The notes beneath the pieces were generated by a model, which ran no database searches, was not told the DNA's origin, and worked only from the letters and a program-made list of their open reading frames with translations. A stretch of DNA of 64,000 nt from a virus: the IMG/VR virus record IMGVR_UViG_3300021962_000068, positions 16,738 through 80,737 of that record; one strand, 5' to 3'. The number at the start of each line of letters is the position of its first letter. Within the stretch, counting starts at the first letter, position 1. Positions 3,210 through 64,000 of this stretch are shown here, one piece after another. Made by a program: the position numbers and the translations under genes.

Positions 3210-4163
3210 ATGAAGATTTTATTTACAGCTGACATTCATATTAAGCTCGGGCAAAAAAGTGTACCAGTTGCTTGGGCTAAGAATAGATATGCACTGCTAT
3301 TCAAAAATCTGCAAGACATTCAAGAAAATTGTGATATATTTATTGTTGGTGGAGACACATTTGATAGAATCCCAACAATCGAAGAATTAGAATTATTTTT
3401 TGAGTTTGTAGCTGGTTGTAAAATTCCTACTTATATTTATAGTGGGAATCACGAGGCTTTAAAGAAAAATACTACTTTTTTAACTAATTTAAAATCTACA
3501 GTAAACTTACTAAATAAAAAAGTATCAATAGTTGACACACTAACTACTATTGAAGGAATAGATTTTATACCTTATAATAAATTAAAAGAGTGGGTTCAGG
3601 ATAGCATATTGCTAGAAGCAAATAGTAAAATATTATGCACTCATGTACGTGGAGAAATTTTACCTCATGTTAAACCTGAAATTGACTTAGAGCTGTTAAA
3701 AGATTGGGATATAGTATTAGCAGGTGATTTACATAGCTATGAGAACTCTCAGTTAAATATTTTATATCCAGGTAGTCCAGTAACTACTAGCTTTCATAGA
3801 AATAAAGTTGAAACTGGAGTAATTGTACTAGACAGTGAAACACTAAAACATGAATGGATTAAACTAGAACTACCACAGCTTATTCGTAAAACAATTCAAG
3901 TCGGCGATACACCGCAAGCAACAGACTATGACCTAACAGTATACGAAGTTGAAGGTGATATTAGCGAACTAGGGGCTTTAGTAGATTCAGAATTAATTGA
4001 TAAGAAAATCTTGAAAAAAGAGAGTGATACTGCGCTTATACTTTCTCAAGAAATGTCACTAGCAGAAGAAGTATCAGAATATGCAAAATACATACTTCAA
4101 CTAAATGAAGATGTAATTGAACAAATACTAGACGAATTAAACAATAATATAAGTAGGATATAG
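3210..4163 (+). CDS. SbcD/Mre11/gp47-like nuclease subunit
   Basis: This 317-residue metallophosphoesterase has the Mre11-family metal-binding motifs in order: DIH (8-10), GGD (47-49), GNHE (79-82), a CTH histidine (145) and GDLH (172-175). These coordinate two metal ions for phosphodiester cleavage of DNA ends. With the SbcC-like ATPase two genes downstream it would form the SbcCD/gp46-47 complex that processes double-strand ends in phage recombination-dependent replication or degrades host DNA. The ATG lies five bases after the upstream terminator's T-run, with no obvious own promoter, so it may depend on read-through. Confidence 0.92.
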   Translation: MKILFTADIHIKLGQKSVPVAWAKNRYALLFKNLQDIQENCDIFIVGGDTFDRIPTIEELELFFEFVAGCKIPTYIYSGNHEALKKNTTFLTNLKSTVNLLNKKVSIVDTLTTIEGIDFIPYNKLKEWVQDSILLEANSKILCTHVRGEILPHVKPEIDLELLKDWDIVLAGDLHSYENSQLNILYPGSPVTTSFHRNKVETGVIVLDSETLKHEWIKLELPQLIRKTIQVGDTPQATDYDLTVYEVEGDISELGALVDSELIDKKILKKESDTALILSQEMSLAEEVSEYAKYILQLNEDVIEQILDELNNNISRI

Positions 4164-6688: not shown

Positions 6689-7543
6689 ATGACTAAAAAA
6701 TTCAACGAATTAACAGAAGCTAACAATACTTTGATGATTGTTGACGGGCTCAACCTTGCATTTAGATGGAAACATAGTGGTGCAACAGAGTTTGTTGATG
6801 ACTATATCAAGACTGTTGAAAGTCTAAAAAAGAGTTATAAAGCTCGCTGGGTAGTAGTTGCCTGTGATAAAGGTAGCAGCGAGTATAGAAAGTCACTATA
6901 TCCAGACTATAAACAAAATAGAAAAGATAAATTCGAGTTACAAACCGAAGAAGATAAAGTTAAGTTTGAATTATTCTTTGAAGAATTTCAAAATACACTA
7001 GATAAGATTGAACAAGACTCTAAATATATTCTATTCAGATTTAATAAAGTAGAGGCGGACGATATTGCTGCTTTTATTGTAAAAAATAAAAAGACTTTTC
7101 CAGCTGTAGATGACATTGTACTAATATCTAGTGATAAAGACTGGGATCTTTTAATTAGTGATAATGTTATGCGTTTTAGTTATGTTACCAGAAAAGAAGT
7201 TTCGGTAGATAACTGGAGCACACACTACGACTGCGAACCTGAAGACTATATTAGTATTAAGTGTTTACAAGGTGATAGTGGCGATAATATTCCAGGCGTT
7301 CCCGGTATTGGTCCTAAAAAAGCATCTGCACTTGTAAAAGAGTATGGATCTACTTATGATATTATTGCTAATATACCAATTCAAAGTAAATATAAATATA
7401 TTCAATCACTAAATGAGTTTGGAGCAGATAATCTGCTTCGTAACTATAGGCTAATGGATCTTTTAGAGTTTTGCGACGAAGCTCTGGGACCCGATAACTG
7501 TAATGCAATACAACAACAGCTCGAGGAAAAATTAAATGTATAA
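6689..7543 (+). CDS. 5'-3' exonuclease / flap endonuclease (T5 D15-like)
   Basis: This 284-residue FEN-family nuclease would remove RNA primers and 5' flaps. The acidic metal ligands are visible in order: D19 in IVDGLNLAFRW, D60 in ACDKGSSEYRK, the E122/D124/D125 cluster in VEADDIAAF, D149/D151 in SSDKDWDLL and D196/D199 in GDSGDNIPG. A helix-hairpin-helix-type DNA-binding segment GVPGIGPKKASAL (203-215) follows. It is the first gene of its own transcript and overlaps the dUTPase start by eight bases. Since many family A phage polymerases lack a 5'-nuclease domain, it probably supplies that activity in trans. Confidence 0.93.
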   Translation: MTKKFNELTEANNTLMIVDGLNLAFRWKHSGATEFVDDYIKTVESLKKSYKARWVVVACDKGSSEYRKSLYPDYKQNRKDKFELQTEEDKVKFELFFEEFQNTLDKIEQDSKYILFRFNKVEADDIAAFIVKNKKTFPAVDDIVLISSDKDWDLLISDNVMRFSYVTRKEVSVDNWSTHYDCEPEDYISIKCLQGDSGDNIPGVPGIGPKKASALVKEYGSTYDIIANIPIQSKYKYIQSLNEFGADNLLRNYRLMDLLEFCDEALGPDNCNAIQQQLEEKLNV

Positions 7544-8024
7544 TCAAGCAGTAGAAGTGCCAACGAACTATAGTCCGGTGCTTTTATATACCAGTGAATC
7601 TCCAGAATTGGCTCCAGTTAGAGCACATCCTTCAGACGCAGGGCTAGATCTAAGAGCTAAACTAGAGTATTTCATCAATCCACATCAGAGAGTTATGGTA
7701 GGCACAGGAATTAGTGTAATGATTCCTTTTGGTTATGTTGGCCTACTATTCGCAAGAAGCTCTCTTAGTAAAAAAGGACTGATACTTGCTAATTCGGTAG
7801 GTGTAATTGATAGTGATTATAGAGGCGAAATAATGGCTCCTCTTATTTTCACTCCAGTATCAGACGAACAGAATTACGCTCACATTGAAAAGTATGAGCG
7901 TATTGTACAACTAGTAATTACACCAATTCAGCTAGCTATACCTGTTGCTCATAGAGGAACAAAAGAACAGTGGTTTAATACTGCGAGAGGAAGCGAGGGC
8001 TTTGGTAGCACAGGAAAAATTTAA
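7536..8024 (+). CDS. dut: dUTP diphosphatase (dUTPase)
   Basis: This 162-residue trimeric-type dUTPase hydrolyses dUTP to dUMP and pyrophosphate, keeping uracil out of phage DNA and supplying dTTP synthesis. Conserved motifs are all present: motif 1 SDAGLDLRA (33-41), motif 2 ARSSLSKKG (73-81), motif 3 NSVGVIDSDYRGE (86-98, catalytic D92), motif 4 around RIVQLVI, and the glycine-rich motif 5 RGSEGFGSTG (151-160) that closes over the active site. It overlaps the exonuclease gene and is followed after two bases by the reductase gene, forming a nucleotide-metabolism unit. Confidence 0.94.
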   Translation: MYNQAVEVPTNYSPVLLYTSESPELAPVRAHPSDAGLDLRAKLEYFINPHQRVMVGTGISVMIPFGYVGLLFARSSLSKKGLILANSVGVIDSDYRGEIMAPLIFTPVSDEQNYAHIEKYERIVQLVITPIQLAIPVAHRGTKEQWFNTARGSEGFGSTGKI

Positions 8025-10919: not shown

Positions 10920-11606
10920 TTAGTAGTCTTTGTAGGCTATAATTATTTCTTTGCATAACCTACTGCGAACAATGTCGTCGTCTAAAAATCTTACCGTTTC
11001 AACACCGTTTATTTTTTGTAATCTATAAAGAGCATCGTCTAAACCACTATCTTTAATATCGCACTGATAATCATCGCCGCTAAGTATAATTTTACAATTT
11101 TTACCTATACGGCTAAGCAACATTTTAAACTCAGTTTTAGTCATGTTTTGTACTTCATCAACTAAAACAACACAGTTTTCAAAAGTTAAACCACGCATAA
11201 ATCCAAGTGGTTTAGGTTGTATAGATCCATTTTTTAGTGCATACTCATAAAACCCTTTGCCAAGCGTTTTAGTAAATACACTATCAAAAGGTTCTAAGTA
11301 TGGCAAATATTTTTCTTCTAGAGTACCAGGTAAATACCCTAAACTTTTGCCGACTTCAACATTAGGTCTAGTAAGATAAATTTTCTCTACTTTTCGGTGA
11401 AATAACTGGCTTGCTGCATATGCGGCTGCTACATATGTTTTACCTGTTCCAGCACTGCCTATTCCAAATATAATATCATTATTATATATAGCTTCTAAAT
11501 ATGTTTCTTGTATATAATTAAGTGGTCTAACTTCCCTAAAATCAACATATTGCTCTGTTGTCTGCATTTTAGTACGTCTTACTTTTTTACCACTATTTGT
11601 AGCCAT
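10920..11606 (-). CDS. PhoH-like P-loop ATPase
   Basis: This 228-residue protein is homologous to the ATPase core of bacterial PhoH. It has Walker A GSAGTGKT (50-57) after FGI, a RPNVEVGKSLGYLPG segment (~80-94) typical of PhoH, and Walker B VVLVDE (D150, E151) followed by QNMT. PhoH-like genes are very common in phages; proposed roles include RNA helicase/nuclease activity or phosphate-stress response, and none is settled for phages. Here it lies between endolysin and the terminal gene of the virion operon, so expression is expected to be late. The name is secure, the function is not. Confidence 0.9.
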   Translation of the reverse strand: MATNSGKKVRRTKMQTTEQYVDFREVRPLNYIQETYLEAIYNNDIIFGIGSAGTGKTYVAAAYAASQLFHRKVEKIYLTRPNVEVGKSLGYLPGTLEEKYLPYLEPFDSVFTKTLGKGFYEYALKNGSIQPKPLGFMRGLTFENCVVLVDEVQNMTKTEFKMLLSRIGKNCKIILSGDDYQCDIKDSGLDDALYRLQKINGVETVRFLDDDIVRSRLCKEIIIAYKDY

Positions 11607-11618
11607 ATAGTTCCTTAT

Positions 11619-12098
11619 CTAAGCTAGTAATAATAAGGATTCAGCTTCTCTACGACGAGTAAGGCCTCGCAAAACTCTACCAGCAGCCTTGTTCCATTTT
11701 TTAATCTCGGTAGCAGCTTCATTCCAATTTTTTTCATCTACTCGTTTTTTAAGAGTAGATATTCTATAATTACCAAGACCGCAATTGTAAGCAAAACTTA
11801 CAATTGCAGCAATTTTTTGAGGTTTTTCGTCTAACAGCCCAGGACTTAGTTTTAATACACCACTTAAAAAATAAGTAACGTGTTCACTTAGCGCGTGTTC
11901 TGCTTGTTGTAGTGTCCACACCGTATCTTTGCGTATATCCGGTCCAGTACTGCCCCAACCTATAGTCCAAGGCTTGCCACCTGTACCTGGGTCAGGATAA
12001 GCAGCACAGCCTCCATTGGGTAGTCTACGATGATAACCTTCAAAAGGTTTTATTAAGACATTTTTGGTAATTTCTACAGCTTCTTCTAAATTGGTCAT
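11619..12098 (-). CDS. Endolysin, GH24 lysozyme-type muramidase
   Basis: This 159-residue enzyme cleaves the glycan strands of peptidoglycan at the end of infection. Near the N terminus LIKPFEG carries the catalytic glutamate (E20), followed by AYPDPGTGG (D36) and PWTIGWGSTG (T45), the sequence style of the GH24 phage lysozymes. The C-terminal part has NCGLGNY and the repeated arginine segment GLTRRREAE typical of the family end. There is no signal peptide or SAR segment, so release depends on the holin encoded five bases upstream. Confidence 0.92.
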   Translation of the reverse strand: MTNLEEAVEITKNVLIKPFEGYHRRLPNGGCAAYPDPGTGGKPWTIGWGSTGPDIRKDTVWTLQQAEHALSEHVTYFLSGVLKLSPGLLDEKPQKIAAIVSFAYNCGLGNYRISTLKKRVDEKNWNEAATEIKKWNKAAGRVLRGLTRRREAESLLLLA

Positions 12099-59315: not shown

Positions 59316-59358
59316 ATCTTTATTGTTCAACGATGCAAACACATAGGAGATCGCATCA

Positions 59359-59678
59359 TGGCCGATAAAGCTGTCAACTACACTTTCGAGCAAACCCAAC
59401 AAGTTATCACCAGCTATAAAGCAGGCGTTCCGGTTGCTGAGATTGCTGCTGCAATGGGCAAGACTGCCCGCTCGATTATTGCAAAACTCTCGCGTGAGGG
59501 AGTTTACCAGAAAAAAGAATACGTCAGCAAGACTGGCGAGCGTCCGGTTAAAAAAGACGTTCAAGCTGATGAGCTTGCTGCACTGTTCGATTTGACGGAA
59601 GCGGAAGCTGATTCGCTCACTAAGGCGAACAAAACTGCGCTTGCGAAAATCCTTGCAAAATCTCGTGCACTAGCGTAA
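59359..59678 (+). CDS. Small helix-turn-helix-like DNA-binding protein (paralogue 1)
   Basis: This 106-residue protein begins with VNYTFEQTQQVITSYKAGV followed by VAEIAAAMGKTARSIIAKLSRE, which reads as a tri-helical Myb/GcrA-like helix-turn-helix with the recognition helix around KTARSIIAKLSREG. A basic VYQKKEYVSKTGERPVKKD linker and a C-terminal helical domain ending in a TKANKTALAKIL segment follow. The gene at 62522 encodes a close paralogue. It is first in the early region, so an early regulator or host-takeover role is likely. Small proteins with this core occur in many phages without known function. Confidence 0.75.
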
Positions 59679-59689
59679 CATTATGTTTC

Positions 59690-59703
59690 GGGGCTTCGGC
59701 CCC
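59690..59703 (+). other. UUCG-capped intercistronic stem-loop
   Basis: GGGGC-TTCG-GCCCC lies between the stop of the first regulator-like gene and the next ribosome-binding site. No T-run follows, so it probably stabilises or processes the mRNA rather than ending it. Confidence 0.7.
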
Positions 59704-59722
59704 ACTTACTGGAGAAGATACT

Positions 59723-60019
59723 ATGACTGATGCAATGATCCGTGACCTGCAAACTGAACTATGGGATTTTTACAAAGATGTTCACGGCATTCGTCCTCGC
59801 CATTGGACAACTGCCGAATGGGCATCGCTGGATTTCCTGATAGAACAGCGCGCTGTACTGTGCAACATTGTAAACAACATGAGCCCGGAACAAAGGGTTG
59901 AGGAAGGCTGGTATGATAACTACGACGACAGCATGGACGGCGACCATGACTCTGCTCTGGCATCTGCTGGATGGGGCACAGATGAGGATTATGGGCATTT
60001 TGATGACGTAGACTTCTAA
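59723..60019 (+). CDS. Conserved acidic phage protein
   Basis: This 98-residue protein starts with the phrase LQTELWDFYKDVHGIRPRHW and WASLDFL, which I recall from many small uncharacterised phage proteins, and ends in an acidic tail (DNYDDSMDGDHDSA and DEDYGHFDDVDF). GGAGAA precedes the ATG at good spacing. The acidic tail could mimic DNA or bind a basic partner, but this is speculation. It is probably co-transcribed with the regulator-like gene. Confidence 0.75.
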   Translation: MTDAMIRDLQTELWDFYKDVHGIRPRHWTTAEWASLDFLIEQRAVLCNIVNNMSPEQRVEEGWYDNYDDSMDGDHDSALASAGWGTDEDYGHFDDVDF

Positions 60020-60029
60020 GGTTGTCAAG

Positions 60030-60053
60030 CCCTGTTGCTTTTTTGCAACAGGG
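60030..60053. repeat. Cassette stem-loop with T6 loop (copy II)
   Basis: CCCTGTTGC and GCAACAGGG form a perfect 9-bp stem around TTTTTT. It is followed by GGCGCC and the leftward promoter, whose predicted start (~60055) lies at the foot of this stem. There is no T-run on the plus side, so it is not a normal rightward terminator. Confidence 0.8.
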
Positions 60054-60061
60054 CGGCGCCA

Positions 60062-60091
60062 ATTATACCATGTATAATTTGGCCGTGTCAA
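60062..60091 (-). promoter_or_regulatory. Cassette leftward promoter (copy II)
   Basis: On the minus strand TTGACA (60086-60091) and TATAAT (60062-60067) are both perfect, spaced 18 bp, with an extended -10 TGG. The -10 lies in an AATTATAC/GTATAATT palindrome. Transcription would run into the 3' end of the upstream gene on the antisense strand. Confidence 0.7.
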
Positions 60092-60099
60092 GGGGGTCT

Positions 60100-60114
60100 T
60101 TCCATCTACTGGAA
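60100..60114. repeat. TTCC-N7-GGAA palindrome (operator-like)
   Basis: TTCCATCTACTGGAA is one of five such 15-bp elements in the early intergenic regions. It is followed by one copy of the 12-mer GTTGTTTTTTCG (60118-60129). Confidence 0.6.
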
Positions 60115-60147
60115 CGTGTTGTTTTTTCGTCTAAGCCTTTTGGCCTA

Positions 60148-60176
60148 TTGACATTCTGTTAGAACAGGCTCATACT
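60148..60176 (+). promoter_or_regulatory. Rightward early promoter for metallopeptidase operon
   Basis: TTGACA (60148-60153) and CATACT (60171-60176) are 17 bp apart. The predicted start near 60183 leaves a ~66-base leader that can fold (AGCAG/CTGCT hairpin at 60199-60213 and GGTTGA/TCGACC closing pairing at 60186-60191 and 60229-60234). Confidence 0.65.
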
Positions 60177-60248
60177 ACACACATAGGTTGAGAACTGGAG
60201 CAGATGTCCTGCTAGATTGAACTGAAGATCGACCACCAACCAAACACT

Positions 60249-60659
60249 ATGACAAGCAAATTCAAAAACGTATCAGATGCTAGATTTGCAAAGGCGCTCG
60301 CGTTCTACTTGCAAATCCTGAATCTTGGCAATCGCGTATCGATTGAAATTCTGCCGAAAAACTTACGGCGCGGTCCGGTTGAATCACGCGCTTGGGGCTG
60401 GTGTACTCAGGAAGATCCGCTAACGTATACTGTCGAGATCGATCGCGCACTCGCTCCGCGTAACGTCCTCAAGGTTTTAGCACATGAGCTGGTTCATGTC
60501 AAGCAATACTTTACAGGACGTATGCAAGAGCACGAAGATTCTGTTTATTGGCTAGGCGAGATTTGCGAGCTAGACTATGATGAACAGCCTTGGGAAATCG
60601 AAGCGGCTGCAATGGAATCGGTTATGTATGAAGCATTTTTAGCATGGGAAACAAAATGA
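60249..60659 (+). CDS. HExxH zinc metallopeptidase (zincin)
   Basis: This 136-residue protein has the zinc-protease motif AHELVHVKQ (H79, E80, H83) and a downstream glutamate cluster PWEIEAAAM (E116/E118) that could be the third ligand, as in gluzincins. The N-terminal region has no signal peptide, so it acts in the cytoplasm. The target is unknown; small phage zincins may cleave host regulators. The start lacks a clear ribosome-binding site after a structured leader. It is the first of five genes coupled by ATGA overlaps. Confidence 0.75.
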   Translation: MTSKFKNVSDARFAKALAFYLQILNLGNRVSIEILPKNLRRGPVESRAWGWCTQEDPLTYTVEIDRALAPRNVLKVLAHELVHVKQYFTGRMQEHEDSVYWLGEICELDYDEQPWEIEAAAMESVMYEAFLAWETK

Positions 60660-60745
60660 AAATAGATGTTGACAAGATCGTTGGTTATGGTATGATGTTG
60701 TGTATCGGATGTTTGATTGCACTACTCTATACAGGCACAATATGA
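60656..60745 (+). CDS. Tiny membrane peptide
   Basis: This 29-residue ORF starts with an ATG overlapping the upstream stop (ATGA) and stops with TGA overlapping the next start. The sequence MKIDVDKIVGYG is followed by a hydrophobic stretch MMLCIGCLIALLY, so it would be a one-pass membrane peptide. It also contains a TTGACA-16-TATGAT promoter (60669-60696). Position and coupling support expression; function unknown. Confidence 0.55.
   Translation: MKIDVDKIVGYGMMLCIGCLIALLYTGTI
60669..60696 (+). promoter_or_regulatory. Internal rightward promoter
   Basis: TTGACA (60669-60674) and TATGAT (60691-60696) are spaced 16 bp with extended -10 TGG. It lies inside the tiny upstream ORF and would transcribe the membrane-protein gene at 60742 and those after it. 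Confidence 0.65.
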
Positions 60746-60954
60746 AAACACTATCTTGGCTCGGAACTGTTGCAAGCGTGATTGGTTCGTTTGTTGTCGC
60801 GCTGGGCGCGATGCTGGCAGGGTATAGCTTGTTTATCATCGGTTCCGTGTCCTGGCTGATTGTCGCCACAAAACGCAGGGATTTGTCCCTTGCCGTTCTG
60901 AACGGATTTTTCTTTGCTGCTAACATTATCGGACTGTCAAGGGCAATATTATGA
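60742..60954 (+). CDS. Small membrane protein
   Basis: The ATG at 60742 gives 70 residues and was chosen over an earlier in-frame start at 60700 because it forms an ATGA overlap with the previous ORF. Two or three hydrophobic segments are visible (SVIGSFVVALGAMLAGYSLF, then GSVSWLIVAT and LNGFFFAANIIGL) separated by a KRRD turn. It would span the inner membrane. It might alter host membrane transport or superinfection, but nothing in the sequence shows which. Confidence 0.65.
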   Translation: MKTLSWLGTVASVIGSFVVALGAMLAGYSLFIIGSVSWLIVATKRRDLSLAVLNGFFFAANIIGLSRAIL

Positions 60955-61043
60955 AAGACTATGAATTTGATATGACACTAAACAATTATTGTTTTAGACT
61001 TGGGTTTTTCGTTATAACTTACTTTTTTGTGGCGGCAATATGA
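60951..61043 (+). CDS. Tiny hydrophobic peptide
   Basis: This 30-residue ORF (MKDYEFDMTLNNYC, then FRLGFFVITYFFVAAI) overlaps both neighbours by ATGA. The N-terminal half is acidic and the C-terminal half would form one membrane helix. Confidence rests on the unbroken coupling pattern rather than on homology. Confidence 0.5.
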   Translation: MKDYEFDMTLNNYCFRLGFFVITYFFVAAI

Positions 61044-61201
61044 AATACTATATTATTAATATGCTAACATATTCGGCATGGTGGGCCAGCGCAGGCGAAG
61101 CGCGATTATATGCGGCATTTGCCTTACGTCACGAAATGCCATATTTGGTTACTACTGGCCCGGACTCGGCTATGATGATTTCACCTGATGAAATTGCGTA
61201 A
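61040..61201 (+). CDS. Small hypothetical protein closing the coupled chain
   Basis: This 53-residue protein (MKYYIINMLTYSAWW, then AGEARLYAAFALRHEM and PDSAMMISPDEIA) starts in an ATGA overlap and ends seven bases before the third cassette stem-loop. The GEARLYAAFALRHE and PDSAMMI phrases look like an amphipathic helix and a strand. Function unknown. It is the last of the five-gene ATGA chain. Confidence 0.6.
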   Translation: MKYYIINMLTYSAWWASAGEARLYAAFALRHEMPYLVTTGPDSAMMISPDEIA

Positions 61202-61207
61202 TTAAAA

Positions 61208-61231
61208 GACCGTTGTTTTTTCGCAACGGTC
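61208..61231. repeat. Cassette stem-loop with T6 loop (copy III)
   Basis: GACCGTTG and CAACGGTC form an 8-bp stem around TTTTTTCG. On the minus strand the stem is followed by TTTTAATT, so this copy could terminate a leftward transcript. The 12-mer GTTGTTTTTTCG at 61212-61223 is shared with 60118-60129 and 61297-61308. Confidence 0.75.
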
Positions 61232-61240
61232 GCGGCGCCA

Positions 61241-61270
61241 ATTTTATCATTAAAATTGCGGCCGTGTCAA
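61241..61270 (-). promoter_or_regulatory. Cassette leftward promoter (copy III)
   Basis: On the minus strand TTGACA (61265-61270) and TAAAAT (61241-61246) are spaced 18 bp with extended -10 TGA. Its predicted start near 61234 lies at the foot of the stem-loop, as in copies II and IV. Confidence 0.6.
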
Positions 61271-61292
61271 GAAAAAAATTGTAACAATTTGT

Positions 61293-61365
61293 AACTGTTG
61301 TTTTTTCGCACAGTTCCACTAGGCGGAATTTAGGGGTTGACAGTAGCGCACAATTAGATCATACT
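61293..61365 (+). promoter_or_regulatory. Operator-like region and rightward promoter (copy III)
   Basis: A second T6-loop stem (AACTGT/ACAGTT, 61293-61315) overlaps a TTCC-N7-GGAA palindrome (61314-61328). TTGACA follows at 61337-61342 and CATACT at 61360-61365 (17 bp). The 28 bases 61314-61341 recur exactly at 62439-62466. The ATG at 61372 falls at the predicted start, so that mRNA may be leaderless. Confidence 0.65.
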
Positions 61366-61371
61366 AACAAC

Positions 61372-61488
61372 ATGAAATTCACAGCAAAACAACACCGAAA
61401 ATTTCAAGCCTGGGCTCGGGCTAGGGGCTTGACATTCGCAACCATTGCAGAATATAATTCTGCTATAGCAACATTTTTTGAGGTTTGA
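61372..61488 (+). CDS. Small ORF, possibly leaderless
   Basis: This 38-residue basic ORF (MKFTAKQHRKFQAWARARGL, then TFATIAEYNSAIATFFEV) has its ATG exactly where the promoter predicts the transcript start. It also contains a complete promoter for the following gene, so it could be incidental coding inside a control region. The KQHRKFQAWARARGLT helix pattern is compatible with a small nucleic-acid-binding peptide. Low confidence. Confidence 0.4.
   Translation: MKFTAKQHRKFQAWARARGLTFATIAEYNSAIATFFEV
61429..61458 (+). promoter_or_regulatory. Perfect-hexamer promoter for the HAD phosphatase gene
   Basis: TTGACA (61429-61434) and TATAAT (61453-61458) are spaced 18 bp. The predicted start near 61465 leads into a leader with GAGG ahead of the ATG at 61492. 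Confidence 0.8.
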
Positions 61489-61491
61489 GCA

Positions 61492-61965
61492 ATGCAAATT
61501 AAGCGTGTTTCGATTTATGACATGGACGGCACGATTGTCGATAGCTTGCACAGGTATCGCACAATCGTTGACGATAATGGCGAACGAATCGACCTAGAAT
61601 ATTGGCGCGAGAATGAATATCGCGCAATGCAAGATAGCTTGCTGCCAATGGCAGAACAATATAAACGCGATATTCAAGATTCAGAATGTTATGTTATTAT
61701 TGCAACTGCTAGGGTTATGAATGAGCCCGATTGGGAATTTGTCGAGCGTAATTTAGGATTGCCTGATTACTTTATATCCCGTCCAAAAGATTCTAATATC
61801 TCAGGCAAAACTCTCAAGATTAATGGTTTGGCAAAATTCTTTAACTTGGTTAATTTCAAGGATGCCGAATTTACATTCTATGAGGATAATATCCAATATC
61901 TCAAAGCGGTTTGCGATAGGTTTAATATTCGAGGCGTATATGTTCCAAGCAAGCAAGGCCATTAA
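61492..61965 (+). CDS. HAD-superfamily phosphatase
   Basis: This 157-residue protein carries the HAD motif I DMDGT (nucleophile D10, acid D12), motif II in IIATAR with a threonine, a motif III lysine in the GKTLKI segment and motif IV YEDN. The small size and short cap suggest a nucleotidase or the phosphatase type found in polynucleotide kinases, but no kinase domain is present. It would act in nucleotide or RNA-end metabolism. It has its own promoter, and a small ORF overlaps its end. Confidence 0.85.
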   Translation: MQIKRVSIYDMDGTIVDSLHRYRTIVDDNGERIDLEYWRENEYRAMQDSLLPMAEQYKRDIQDSECYVIIATARVMNEPDWEFVERNLGLPDYFISRPKDSNISGKTLKINGLAKFFNLVNFKDAEFTFYEDNIQYLKAVCDRFNIRGVYVPSKQGH

Positions 61966-62074
61966 AACTGGCAGGGTTATTATCTTGTGTCTTTATTTAT
62001 TATCTAATAAAAAGCTAGAAGATAATATCGAACCTTATTCGAAATGGGAGCGTGATATATGGGTCACAGCATAA
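61940..62074 (+). CDS. Small overlapping ORF
   Basis: This 44-residue ORF (MFQASKAIKTGRVIILCLYL, then LSNKKLEDNIEPYSKW) overlaps the end of the phosphatase gene by 26 bases and the start of the PQ-loop gene by 16. It fills an otherwise empty 93-base gap and has one hydrophobic stretch. It may link translation of the two neighbours. No ribosome-binding site is obvious. Confidence 0.4.
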   Translation: MFQASKAIKTGRVIILCLYLLSNKKLEDNIEPYSKWERDIWVTA

Positions 62075-62313
62075 TTGGTTATATTGGTGGATTTTTATTG
62101 GCCGTTTGCGGATTACCGCAAGCAATAGAATGTGCGCGTACTGGTCACGCAAACGGCTTAAATTGGATGTTTTTGCTGGCTTGGTTTTTTGGCGAGGTTT
62201 TTATGTTCGCTTATGTTATCCAATCCGGTGATATTCCACTAATAATGAATATCACTTTTAACTTGATACTGGTTATTATTATCTTGCGATATAAAATGCA
62301 TCCACGCGAATAA
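62059..62313 (+). CDS. PQ-loop (semiSWEET-like) small membrane protein
   Basis: This 84-residue protein has three hydrophobic helices. The first ends with the PQ-loop signature AVCGLPQAIECART, the second is GLNWMFLLAWFFGEVFMFAYV, and a third runs near the C terminus (NITFNLILVIIIL). Length, helix number and PQ motif match single-repeat semiSWEET transporters or MtN3-like proteins, which dimerise to pass small sugars or other solutes. GGGAG lies upstream of the ATG. A transporter-like protein is unusual in a phage early region. Confidence 0.75.
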   Translation: MGHSIIGYIGGFLLAVCGLPQAIECARTGHANGLNWMFLLAWFFGEVFMFAYVIQSGDIPLIMNITFNLILVIIILRYKMHPRE

Positions 62314-62321
62314 TATAAATT

Positions 62322-62348
62322 GAATATGCCTATTTTTTAGGCATATTC
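62322..62348. repeat. Cassette stem-loop (copy IV)
   Basis: GAATATGCCTA and TAGGCATATTC form a perfect 11-bp stem around TTTTT. The foot at 62348 coincides with the predicted start of the adjacent leftward promoter. Confidence 0.8.
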
Positions 62349-62354
62349 GCGCCA

Positions 62355-62384
62355 ATTTTACTATAGTAAAATTGGCCGTGTCAA
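62355..62384 (-). promoter_or_regulatory. Cassette leftward promoter within a 26-bp palindrome (copy IV)
   Basis: On the minus strand TTGACA (62379-62384) and TAAAAT (62355-62360) are spaced 18 bp. The -10 is inside a perfect palindrome (62351-62376, GCCAATTTTAC/GTAAAATTGGC around TATA), a likely protein-binding site. A second GC-rich palindrome follows at 62385-62396. Confidence 0.6.
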
Positions 62385-62402
62385 GCGCGGCCGCGCGAAC
62401 TG

Positions 62403-62490
62403 TTCCACCTGTTGGAAATTGTTGTTTGTTAGCCACAATTCCACTAGGCGGAATTTAGGGGTTGACCGCAGCGATATTATGGGCGATAAT
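62403..62490 (+). promoter_or_regulatory. Two operator-like palindromes and rightward promoter (copy IV)
   Basis: TTCC-N7-GGAA elements at 62403-62417 and 62439-62453 precede TTGACC (62462-62467) and GATAAT (62485-62490), spaced 17 bp. The second element plus promoter start is the exact 28-bp duplicate of 61314-61341. It drives the second regulator-like gene (AAGGA before its ATG). Confidence 0.7.
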
Positions 62491-62521: not shown

Positions 62522-62848
62522 ATGGCTACGAAAACCATTAATTATACTCCGGAACAAACTCTGAAAATCGTTACCGATTATCAATCGGGTATTTCCGTCG
62601 AAACCCTTGCCGAAACTTTTGGCAAAACTACTCGCTCGATTATTGCTAAATTGTCGCGCGAAGGCGTATATCAGAAAAAAGAATATGTTTCAAAAACTGG
62701 CGATAAGCCTGTTAAAAAAGATACTGTAGCTGATGCAATTGGCGCAATTTTGCGACTAACAGAATCAGAAACAGAATCGCTTACAAAAGCTAATAAAACG
62801 GCATTAAATAAAATCTTTAATGCCCTGGCTAATTCTAAGCCGTTGTAA
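62522..62848 (+). CDS. Small helix-turn-helix-like DNA-binding protein (paralogue 2)
   Basis: This 108-residue paralogue of the protein at 59359-59678 shares INYTPEQTLKIVTDY, FGKTTRSIIAKLSREGVYQK, KEYVSKTGDKPVKKD and LTKANKTALNKI with it. The DNA has diverged in codon use, being more AT-rich here, so the duplication is old or the copies come from different phages. It follows a region with two TTCC-N7-GGAA elements, consistent with self-regulation. Core structure is expected to be a tri-helical DNA-binding domain with a C-terminal helix. Confidence 0.75.
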   Translation: MATKTINYTPEQTLKIVTDYQSGISVETLAETFGKTTRSIIAKLSREGVYQKKEYVSKTGDKPVKKDTVADAIGAILRLTESETESLTKANKTALNKIFNALANSKPL

Positions 62849-62857
62849 ATAAACAAC

Positions 62858-62893
62858 ATGGGTATTGACAAAAAATCAATACCCATTTATACT
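62858..62893 (+). promoter_or_regulatory. Promoter overlapped by an inverted repeat
   Basis: TTGACA (62865-62870) and TATACT (62888-62893) are 17 bp apart. The -35 and spacer lie within an 11-bp inverted repeat ATGGGTATTGA/TCAATACCCAT (62858-62868, 62876-62886), so a bound protein or an RNA hairpin could block it. Confidence 0.75.
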
Positions 62894-62916
62894 TTGTTTT
62901 TTACTTGGATACTTTA

Positions 62917-63612
62917 ATGGCTAAACCACAATATTTTCTGATTGTCGATACCGAAACCACGATTCAAGATACCGTGTTTGATTTTGCTGCGGTACTGGTA
63001 AATCGTCGCGGCGATATCGTCAAGCAATGCGCGGTTATTGTACGCGAATCCCTTAATACTGAATTGTTTTTTGACTCCAATGCAGACTCGCACTTCTCGA
63101 AAAAATCACTTACTCGTCGCCACGATAATTATAATCGTATGCTTGATAATGGTTCGCGTATTATCGCTTCTGCTGCTGCAATTAATCGCTGGCTCGAGCG
63201 TGTTAATACCCAATATAAGCCCGAATTGACTGCATATAATCTTGCTTTCGATTTGACTAAATCTCGTAATACTGGTATTGACCTAGATATTTTTGCAAAG
63301 CGATTTTGCCTTTGGCAATTAGCTGTCGGGCATTTTGCTAAAACCCATAAATACCGCAGATTTGTTTTGCAAAACCACCTATTTAATCCGCCGACTAAAC
63401 ACGGCAATATGACCTACAAAACCAATGCCGAGGTTATGTCGAGTTTTGTTTGCGGCGAAATGTTACCGCCCGAACCGCATACCGCATTGGAAGATATTAT
63501 TCATTATGAATTGCCGATTTTGGTTGCAATTGCCAAACGTGATAACTGGCGCGAGCGTGCTACTAATTATGATTGGCAGCAATTTCAAGTAAAAGATAAC
63601 TTTGGGATTTAA
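62917..63612 (+). CDS. DEDDh 3'-5' exonuclease (RNase T/ExoX-like)
   Basis: This 231-residue protein from the ATG at 62917 (a TTG at 62905 would add four residues) has the DEDDh motifs: Exo I IVDTET (D11, E13), Exo II AYNLAFDL with a conserved N and D, and Exo III HTALEDI with histidine and aspartate. Such enzymes trim 3' ends of DNA or RNA. It differs from a polymerase proofreading domain in being free-standing. It lies between the regulator-like gene and a metallopeptidase, in an apparent operon with its own promoter. Confidence 0.85.
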   Translation: MAKPQYFLIVDTETTIQDTVFDFAAVLVNRRGDIVKQCAVIVRESLNTELFFDSNADSHFSKKSLTRRHDNYNRMLDNGSRIIASAAAINRWLERVNTQYKPELTAYNLAFDLTKSRNTGIDLDIFAKRFCLWQLAVGHFAKTHKYRRFVLQNHLFNPPTKHGNMTYKTNAEVMSSFVCGEMLPPEPHTALEDIIHYELPILVAIAKRDNWRERATNYDWQQFQVKDNFGI

Positions 63613-63946: not shown

Positions 63947-63973
63947 AAAACCCGGTTATTTCCGGGTTTTATT
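63947..63973 (+). terminator. Rho-independent terminator
   Basis: AAAACCCGG and CCGGGTTTT form a 9-bp stem with a TTATTT loop and a T-rich tail. It ends the exonuclease-metallopeptidase transcript. Confidence 0.88.
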
Positions 63974-64000
63974 TTGCCTATTTTTTAGGCAAAATGGCGC
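63971..64000. repeat. Start of a further cassette (copy V, cut by window end)
   Basis: ATTTTGCCTA and TAGGCAAAAT form a 10-bp stem around TTTTT, followed by GGCGC at the window edge, the same order as in copies II-IV. The rest of the cassette should lie just beyond 64000. Confidence 0.65.

Follow-up and report, generated by a model that had tools for sequence, protein, structure and literature searches.

A stretch of viral DNA 64,000 nucleotides long (the window, bases 16738-80737 of the 80,737-base IMG/VR virus record IMGVR_UViG_3300021962_000068, which reaches the record's final base) carries, in gaps between its early genes, copies of a cassette in which a hairpin stands next to a predicted strong promoter aimed leftward, against the direction of those genes. 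Judged by comparison of sequences, this opposing promoter is the conserved core of the cassette across a whole phage clade. We tentatively propose that the cassette serves as a marker for the 3′ end of an early transcription unit and that its backward promoter may end or dampen transcription of the upstream unit through polymerase collision, a reading that falls a little short of probable. The initial annotation of this region had described the cassettes and the leftward promoter in the window; the clade-wide conservation of the opposing promoter, and the fact that the clade is T5-like and not T4-like, go beyond it.

Three complete copies (60030-60176, 61208-61365 and 62322-62490) have the same order on the sense strand: hairpin, GGCGC(C), AT palindrome, GTGTCAAG and a rightward promoter-like site. 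On the minus strand each has the hexamers and spacing of a sigma70-type promoter (-35, spacer of 16-18 bp, -10). The predicted promoter of copy 1 (60056..60091) consists of a -35 TTGACA at 60091-60086, an 18-bp spacer, a -10 TATAAT at 60067-60062 and an NGGCGC discriminator at 60061-60056, with a predicted start at about 60055; those of copy 2 (61235..61270) and copy 3 (62349..62384) both read TTGACA-18-TAAAAT-TGGCGC, with the -35 at 61265-61270 and 62379-62384 and predicted starts at about 61234 and 62348, respectively. The hairpin, GGCGC(C), palindrome and hexamers lie exactly where they had first been placed, and the starts, each with its stem-loop, agree as well. These promoters score 12, 11 and 11 of 12 for their hexamers and are among the four top-listed of 30 promoter-like sites between 54 and 64 kb. 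When up to two mismatches to the hexamers plus GGCGC discriminator were allowed, the three copies were the sole matches in the 80.7-kb record; its other strand and the control gave no match.

The same promoter recurs in relatives. A search of 2.9 million viral contigs for TTGACA-N18-TAWAAT-NGGCGC returned at least 119 stretches, many of them with two to six copies, and nearly all fetched loci encode homologues of the D5-like, exonuclease-like, HAD or terminase proteins of the window phage (145 loci matched); by these markers, the motif-bearing contigs come almost solely from one uncultured T5-like clade. In a relative identified through a protein (57% identity), six promoters match, all of them on a single strand; five lie within the early block of that relative and oppose its genes. 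One strict form of the motif had a single match in 257 Gb of prokaryote genomes, which led us to reject, for the exact motif, a mimic of host rRNA or tRNA promoters or a host-derived sequence. Phage T5 itself (AY543070) and the Vibrio phages 234P1 and VPG01 had no copy even at two mismatches, so that a T5-wide feature is ruled out. Sequence-level evidence for a promoter comes from an unbiased scan whose pattern contained the palindrome and discriminator alone and ignored the -35: in the new loci, 37 of 43 copies had an exact TTGACA, for which chance gives about 1 in 4096 at each position, exactly 18 bp from the -10. An extended -10 TG was enriched though unsearched (81% and 63%), as was an A-rich stretch upstream of the -35, also outside the search pattern. 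Copies without the AT palindrome retain the promoter core; degenerate copies are rare, and relaxation to two mismatches inside whole records yielded no extra ones.

The orientation of the promoter is nearly absolute. In 120 of 120 loci all copies are confined to one strand, opposite the early genes, and with the pattern extended to a discriminator of 1-4 bases ahead of GGCGC we counted 397 antisense copies and one sense copy, which bears out, for the relatives, the claim that the promoter opposes the gene direction. Gene by gene, the ratio of antisense to sense was 46:0 for PQ-loop, 40:0 for homologues of the gene at 60700, 22:0 for SprT-like, 71:3 for HAD and 70:4 for exonuclease-like genes; terminase genes share the direction of the cassette promoter (158:0). 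A promoter serving leftward genes was considered and dropped, as no leftward gene is consistently downstream inside the early block.

The position of the cassette follows the gene units. It lay between two early genes in 197 cases and after the last early gene in 28 (gene calls were mechanical, which adds noise to these counts), and in 76 of 85 loci it was missing from the divergent gap that precedes the first early gene; being so placed and so rare in that first gap, it seems to need a gene to oppose. The operon-internal EXO-PQ junction never has a cassette (42 of 42), and the HAD-EXO junction has one in 23 loci and none in 22, the gap in the latter being mostly short or holding a variant copy. 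In the window, the description of cassettes in “every main gap” holds for the three complete gaps and for a fourth copy at 63971..64000 (plus strand; stem-loop at 63971-63995 plus GGCGC), inside which the record ends; it does not extend to the four short intra-unit gaps (59678-59723, 60659-60742, 61965-62059 and 62848-62917), where the cassette is missing, or to 59208, where there is only a degenerate look-alike. Relatives differ in gene order but keep their cassettes at the boundaries of units; because the order differs, we read the cassettes as delimiting shuffled units. The copies in each record examined form one cluster, which terminase genes adjoin where they are seen, and by this position the cluster would correspond to the rightward pre-early block of T5 before the injection stop signal; the units bounded by the cassette are probably pre-early, first-step-transfer units. 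Where the early block ends convergently, a repeat-rich, non-coding gap (11040-11880 in locus L028, with a matching gap in relatives) holds tandem repeats of the TTGCACT..GGCGCAG type, in a position that corresponds to the T5 injection stop signal.

The hairpin directly beside the predicted start is conserved as a structure. In 68% of 488 copies its score lay beyond the 99th percentile of shuffles, and 67 clusters of unrelated sequence were distinguished among the hairpins, so the statement that stems differ while their geometry is kept holds for relatives too; the presence of covariation in relatives, set beforehand as a refutation test, came out in favor of structure. In the window the stem-loops lie on the plus strand at 60030..60053 (9-bp stem, T6 loop), 61208..61231 and 62322..62348 (11-bp stem), and the tandem hairpins in the sense RNA of the three complete copies gave folding z scores of -4.1, -5.3 and -7.9. 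Pairs other than Watson-Crick ones are mostly A.C when read on the leftward strand and hence G.U when read in the sense RNA (47 vs 10; 13 vs 3 when counted per sequence cluster, P = 0.02). Because the G.U pairs fall on the sense strand, the hairpin is probably a 3′ element of the sense mRNA (in copy 1, that of the upstream gene at 59723-60019) and not a 5′ leader of the leftward RNA; the latter reading, suggested by the start that the initial annotation had placed at the foot of the stem-loop, is contradicted by this bias with moderate force. Nor does it look like an ordinary intrinsic (rho-independent) terminator: its sense side runs into GGCGC with no U-tract, and a leftward U-tract (at least 5 T of 8) is present in only 16% of hairpins. 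The same 16% disposes of a general rule of promoter plus immediate leftward terminator making an RNA of about 40 nt, which fits some relatives. No Rfam match came near the gathering threshold for a known RNA family, and no stable RNA is encoded. Two other motifs occur here: a palindrome AATGAGAAT-N-ATTCTCATT, which we take to resemble a Fur box, a host iron-regulator site, lies within 25 of the 488 hairpin regions, in divergent phages (e.g., L051, L058, L064, L082, L105 and L109), and TGTTTCACGTGAAACA or variants of it, presumably similar to parS, the host chromosome-partition site, stand beside the hairpin in 24 of 488 copies (e.g., L048, L066, L081 and L101).

The AT palindrome overlaps the -10 in copy 1 (AATTATAC-CAT-GTATAATT, 60061..60079), surrounds it in copy 2 (61240..61257) and is perfect in copy 3 (GCCAATTTTACTATAGTAAAATTGGC, 62351..62376). 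A palindrome surrounds the -10 in 143 of 287 unique cores, compared with 0.8% for shuffled spacers; complementarity of the arm positions flanking the -10 was seen in 241 of 243 cases, where column composition predicts 213, and in 142 of 143 the third base of the -10, which varies, pairs with its partner. Its loop varies from 3 to 6 nt and its arms differ in length with compensating changes. A loop of such variable size would be unexpected in a classical dimeric operator and argues for a fold-back structure instead, so we rejected a simple dimeric-repressor operator at the -10, though single copies may still qualify. In a variant form of the cassette (e.g., L077, L144 and L089) the palindrome is longer (CCAAAATTATA..TATAATTTTGG), and a longer arm brings a longer discriminator without any change in the 18-bp spacer. 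The TTCC-N7-GGAA palindrome, which had been counted as part of the cassette and, with the AT palindrome, had suggested operators, occurs at five sites in the window (among them 60100..60114 in copy 1, 61314..61328 in copy 2, and 62403-62417 and 62439-62453 in copy 3) and beside 0 of 477 copies in relatives; it is therefore private to the window phage and outside the conserved cassette, the operator reading becomes doubtful, and the matches to a first DNA search pattern that included it were not cassette copies.

The rightward promoter is a variable component. Promoter-like sites are indeed present on the plus strand of the window, as first described (60148..60176, TTGACA-17-CATACT, 10 of 12; 61337..61365, TTGACA-17-CATACT; 62462..62490, TTGACC-17-GATAAT), weaker there than the leftward promoters; in many relatives a sense TATAAT peaks 50-100 bp right of the cassette, with poor -35 matches. 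An ATG follows the sense -10 by about 6-8 bases at 61337-61380 in the window and behind sense promoters of relatives (L033, L058 and L133), a closeness that suggests leaderless early mRNAs. At 62858-62886, an arm of a further hairpin, ATGGGTATTGACAAAAAATCAATACCCAT, holds the -35 of the promoter of the exonuclease-like gene.

Taken together, and judged by sequence, the cassette consists of three parts that follow one another on the sense strand: a hairpin right behind the gene that closes a unit; a promoter of sigma70 type, strong and near consensus, aimed back into that unit (with a partly extended -10, an A-rich upstream element and a GC discriminator), whose -10 lies inside a palindrome in half of the distinct copies; and, in many cases, the sense promoter for the unit that follows. 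Host RNA polymerase would start leftward and meet head-on the polymerase that is completing the upstream unit, and this collision would end or dampen sense transcription at the unit boundary, shielding the next promoter from read-through and lowering expression of the upstream genes. Antisense RNA may add to the repression. The hairpin, with no U-tract behind it, is proposed to be a protected 3′ end of the sense mRNA, and, because every unit carries its own boundary, gene units could be swapped as modules. Several observations weigh against this scheme. The strong covariation of the -10 palindrome receives no explanation from collision alone; a canonical sense terminator-like site lies left of the cassette in about a third of gaps (one stands at 63947-63970, plus strand, before copy 4), so that termination by collision would be partly redundant; the minority of hairpins with a leftward U-tract implies that some leftward RNAs may stop at once; the sense-strand bias of the G.U pairs comes from a small number of independent hairpin clusters; and there is no close cultured relative, the early exonuclease-like protein having had no match among 50,697 phage records.

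The leftward promoters might instead serve mainly to make cis-antisense RNAs that pair with early mRNAs in a timed (pre-)early shut-off, with collision secondary. The promoter is always antisense to the upstream gene, no strong leftward terminator lies between the copy 1 start and the gene at 59723-60019, and T5 pre-early genes are, by annotation, shut off by A1. Against this, the hairpin at the supposed antisense 5′ end has its G.U pairs on the sense side, the leftward U-tract of some copies would stop the RNA after about 40 nt, and the antisense RNA yielded no second conserved element; we regard this explanation as unlikely, though less so than the others. A mobile cassette, kept as conserved sequence for recombination between phages and module shuffling, with the backward promoter a by-product or relic, would fit the differing gene orders with cassettes holding the unit boundaries and the HAD-EXO junction with its 23 loci with and 22 without. 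However, the hairpin and palindrome sequences diverge while pairing persists, which lowers homology, and the promoter core hardly varies, including in copies that have lost the palindrome, which points to function, making such a cassette a distinctly poor candidate.

Back-to-back coupling, in which the strong leftward promoter aids the weaker adjacent sense promoter by negative supercoiling or a shared upstream element, would account for the sense TATAAT peak with its poor -35 matches. It must contend with the 28 copies behind the last early gene, which have no sense gene directly downstream, with the divergent first gap, which needs a sense promoter too yet is mostly without a cassette, and with the good sense -35s in the window, and we think it improbable. 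Least probable of all is an element that acts at the DNA level or sequesters a factor (through single strands that form hairpins, control of entry during first-step transfer, or titration of host polymerase): the single cluster adjoining terminase genes, the positional match to the T5 block before the injection stop signal and the variable loop of the covarying palindrome would suit it, but a polymerase sink need neither oppose genes nor avoid the first gap, and we know of no single-stranded stage in the entry of T5-like DNA. In falling order of probability, these four alternatives are antisense RNA, recombination akin to that of the T4-type cassettes discussed below, sense-promoter coupling and DNA-level roles.

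If the collision reading is correct, it can be carried further, with still less assurance: nearly every early unit in this T5-like clade would have a head-on promoter as its boundary, dimmer and “off” switch, with natural, modular collision of polymerases as the usual means of terminating a unit. Antisense transcription and head-on collision are widespread in bacteria, and it is disputed in how many cases they have a selected function and in how many they are noise; here sequence comparison by itself shows strong selection, with hundreds of copies, a single orientation, a near-invariant core and conserved hairpins of unrelated sequence. The cassettes could serve as a compact natural test system and a library of natural gene-tuning parts, and the motif as a sequence signature of a large uncultured phage clade.

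The assignment of the window phage as T5-like follows from its Demerecviridae-related terminase and helicase and its D5-like regulators: DnaB is 38-39% identical and TerL at most 48% identical to proteins of Demerecviridae phages, and there was more than one profile hit to D5-like regulators. Two early genes tested had no match among cultured phages, and its DNA ligase, read from the translations, is apparently split across two reading frames. Two small D5-like DNA-binding proteins encoded inside the early block (59358-59678 and 62522-62848) are candidate regulators of the cassette; further look-alikes are found in locus L005, which also carries tRNA-Arg, tRNA-Met and a tmRNA-like gene (tag ANDEVFALAA) at 1105-1180, 3224-3301 and 7372-7705, respectively.

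Among known systems, the promoter early stem-loop (PeSL) cassettes of T4-type phages, reportedly described by Arbiol in 2010 and Comeau in 2014, offer a parallel that the initial annotation had already drawn. Both combine a stem-loop with an early promoter of host type and occupy the gaps that separate shuffled early modules in lytic phages, and the likeness stands for the place between early modules and the link to module shuffling. It fails for the rest: the PeSL promoter is said to run in the gene direction, whereas the conserved promoter here opposes the genes (397:1) and no conserved gene-direction promoter lies behind the stem-loop, the sense TATAAT being frequent but variable; and the host phage is T5-like (by its replication and terminase proteins and D5-like regulators), not T4-type. 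If our proposal is true, T5-like phages insulate their modules by other means than these cassettes. The T5 pre-early, first-step-transfer region (AY543070) shares, by position, a rightward block of small early genes near late genes, a repeat-rich gap and then a leftward block, but T5 and the two Vibrio T5-like phages lack the cassette.

Opposing promoters are also familiar from temperate phages, where the face-to-face or natural antisense promoters of lambda (pRE, paQ) and 186 (pR-pL) act by transcriptional interference; those, however, are single switches and not a repeated boundary element. The stable-RNA promoters of the rrn P1 type have full-consensus hexamers, an A-rich upstream element and a GC-rich discriminator. 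The cassette promoter has the same hexamers, the A-rich upstream element and a GGCGC discriminator, but encodes no stable RNA (no Rfam match above threshold). To our knowledge there is no described phage equivalent of a backward promoter plus hairpin at the ends of early units, and a literature search limited to open-licence papers found no description of a repeated opposing promoter of this type.

A parallel with the same layout, and a precedent for the proposed mechanism, is synthetic: the gene/terminator/antisense-promoter part in which repression is proportional to the strength of the antisense promoter and collisions and antisense RNA contribute about equally (Brophy and Voigt, 2016; PMC4731013). 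In both, a gene is followed by a hairpin element and a constitutive promoter aimed back, at the 3′ end and outside the coding sequence, and each part tunes, or here would tune, its own gene; the phage promoter likewise lies past the 3′ end of the gene and points into it. The synthetic part uses natural E. coli terminators, whereas the phage hairpin has no sense U-tract, and the phage version recurs throughout the early region; in many copies its -10 is palindromic and a sense promoter lies behind it.

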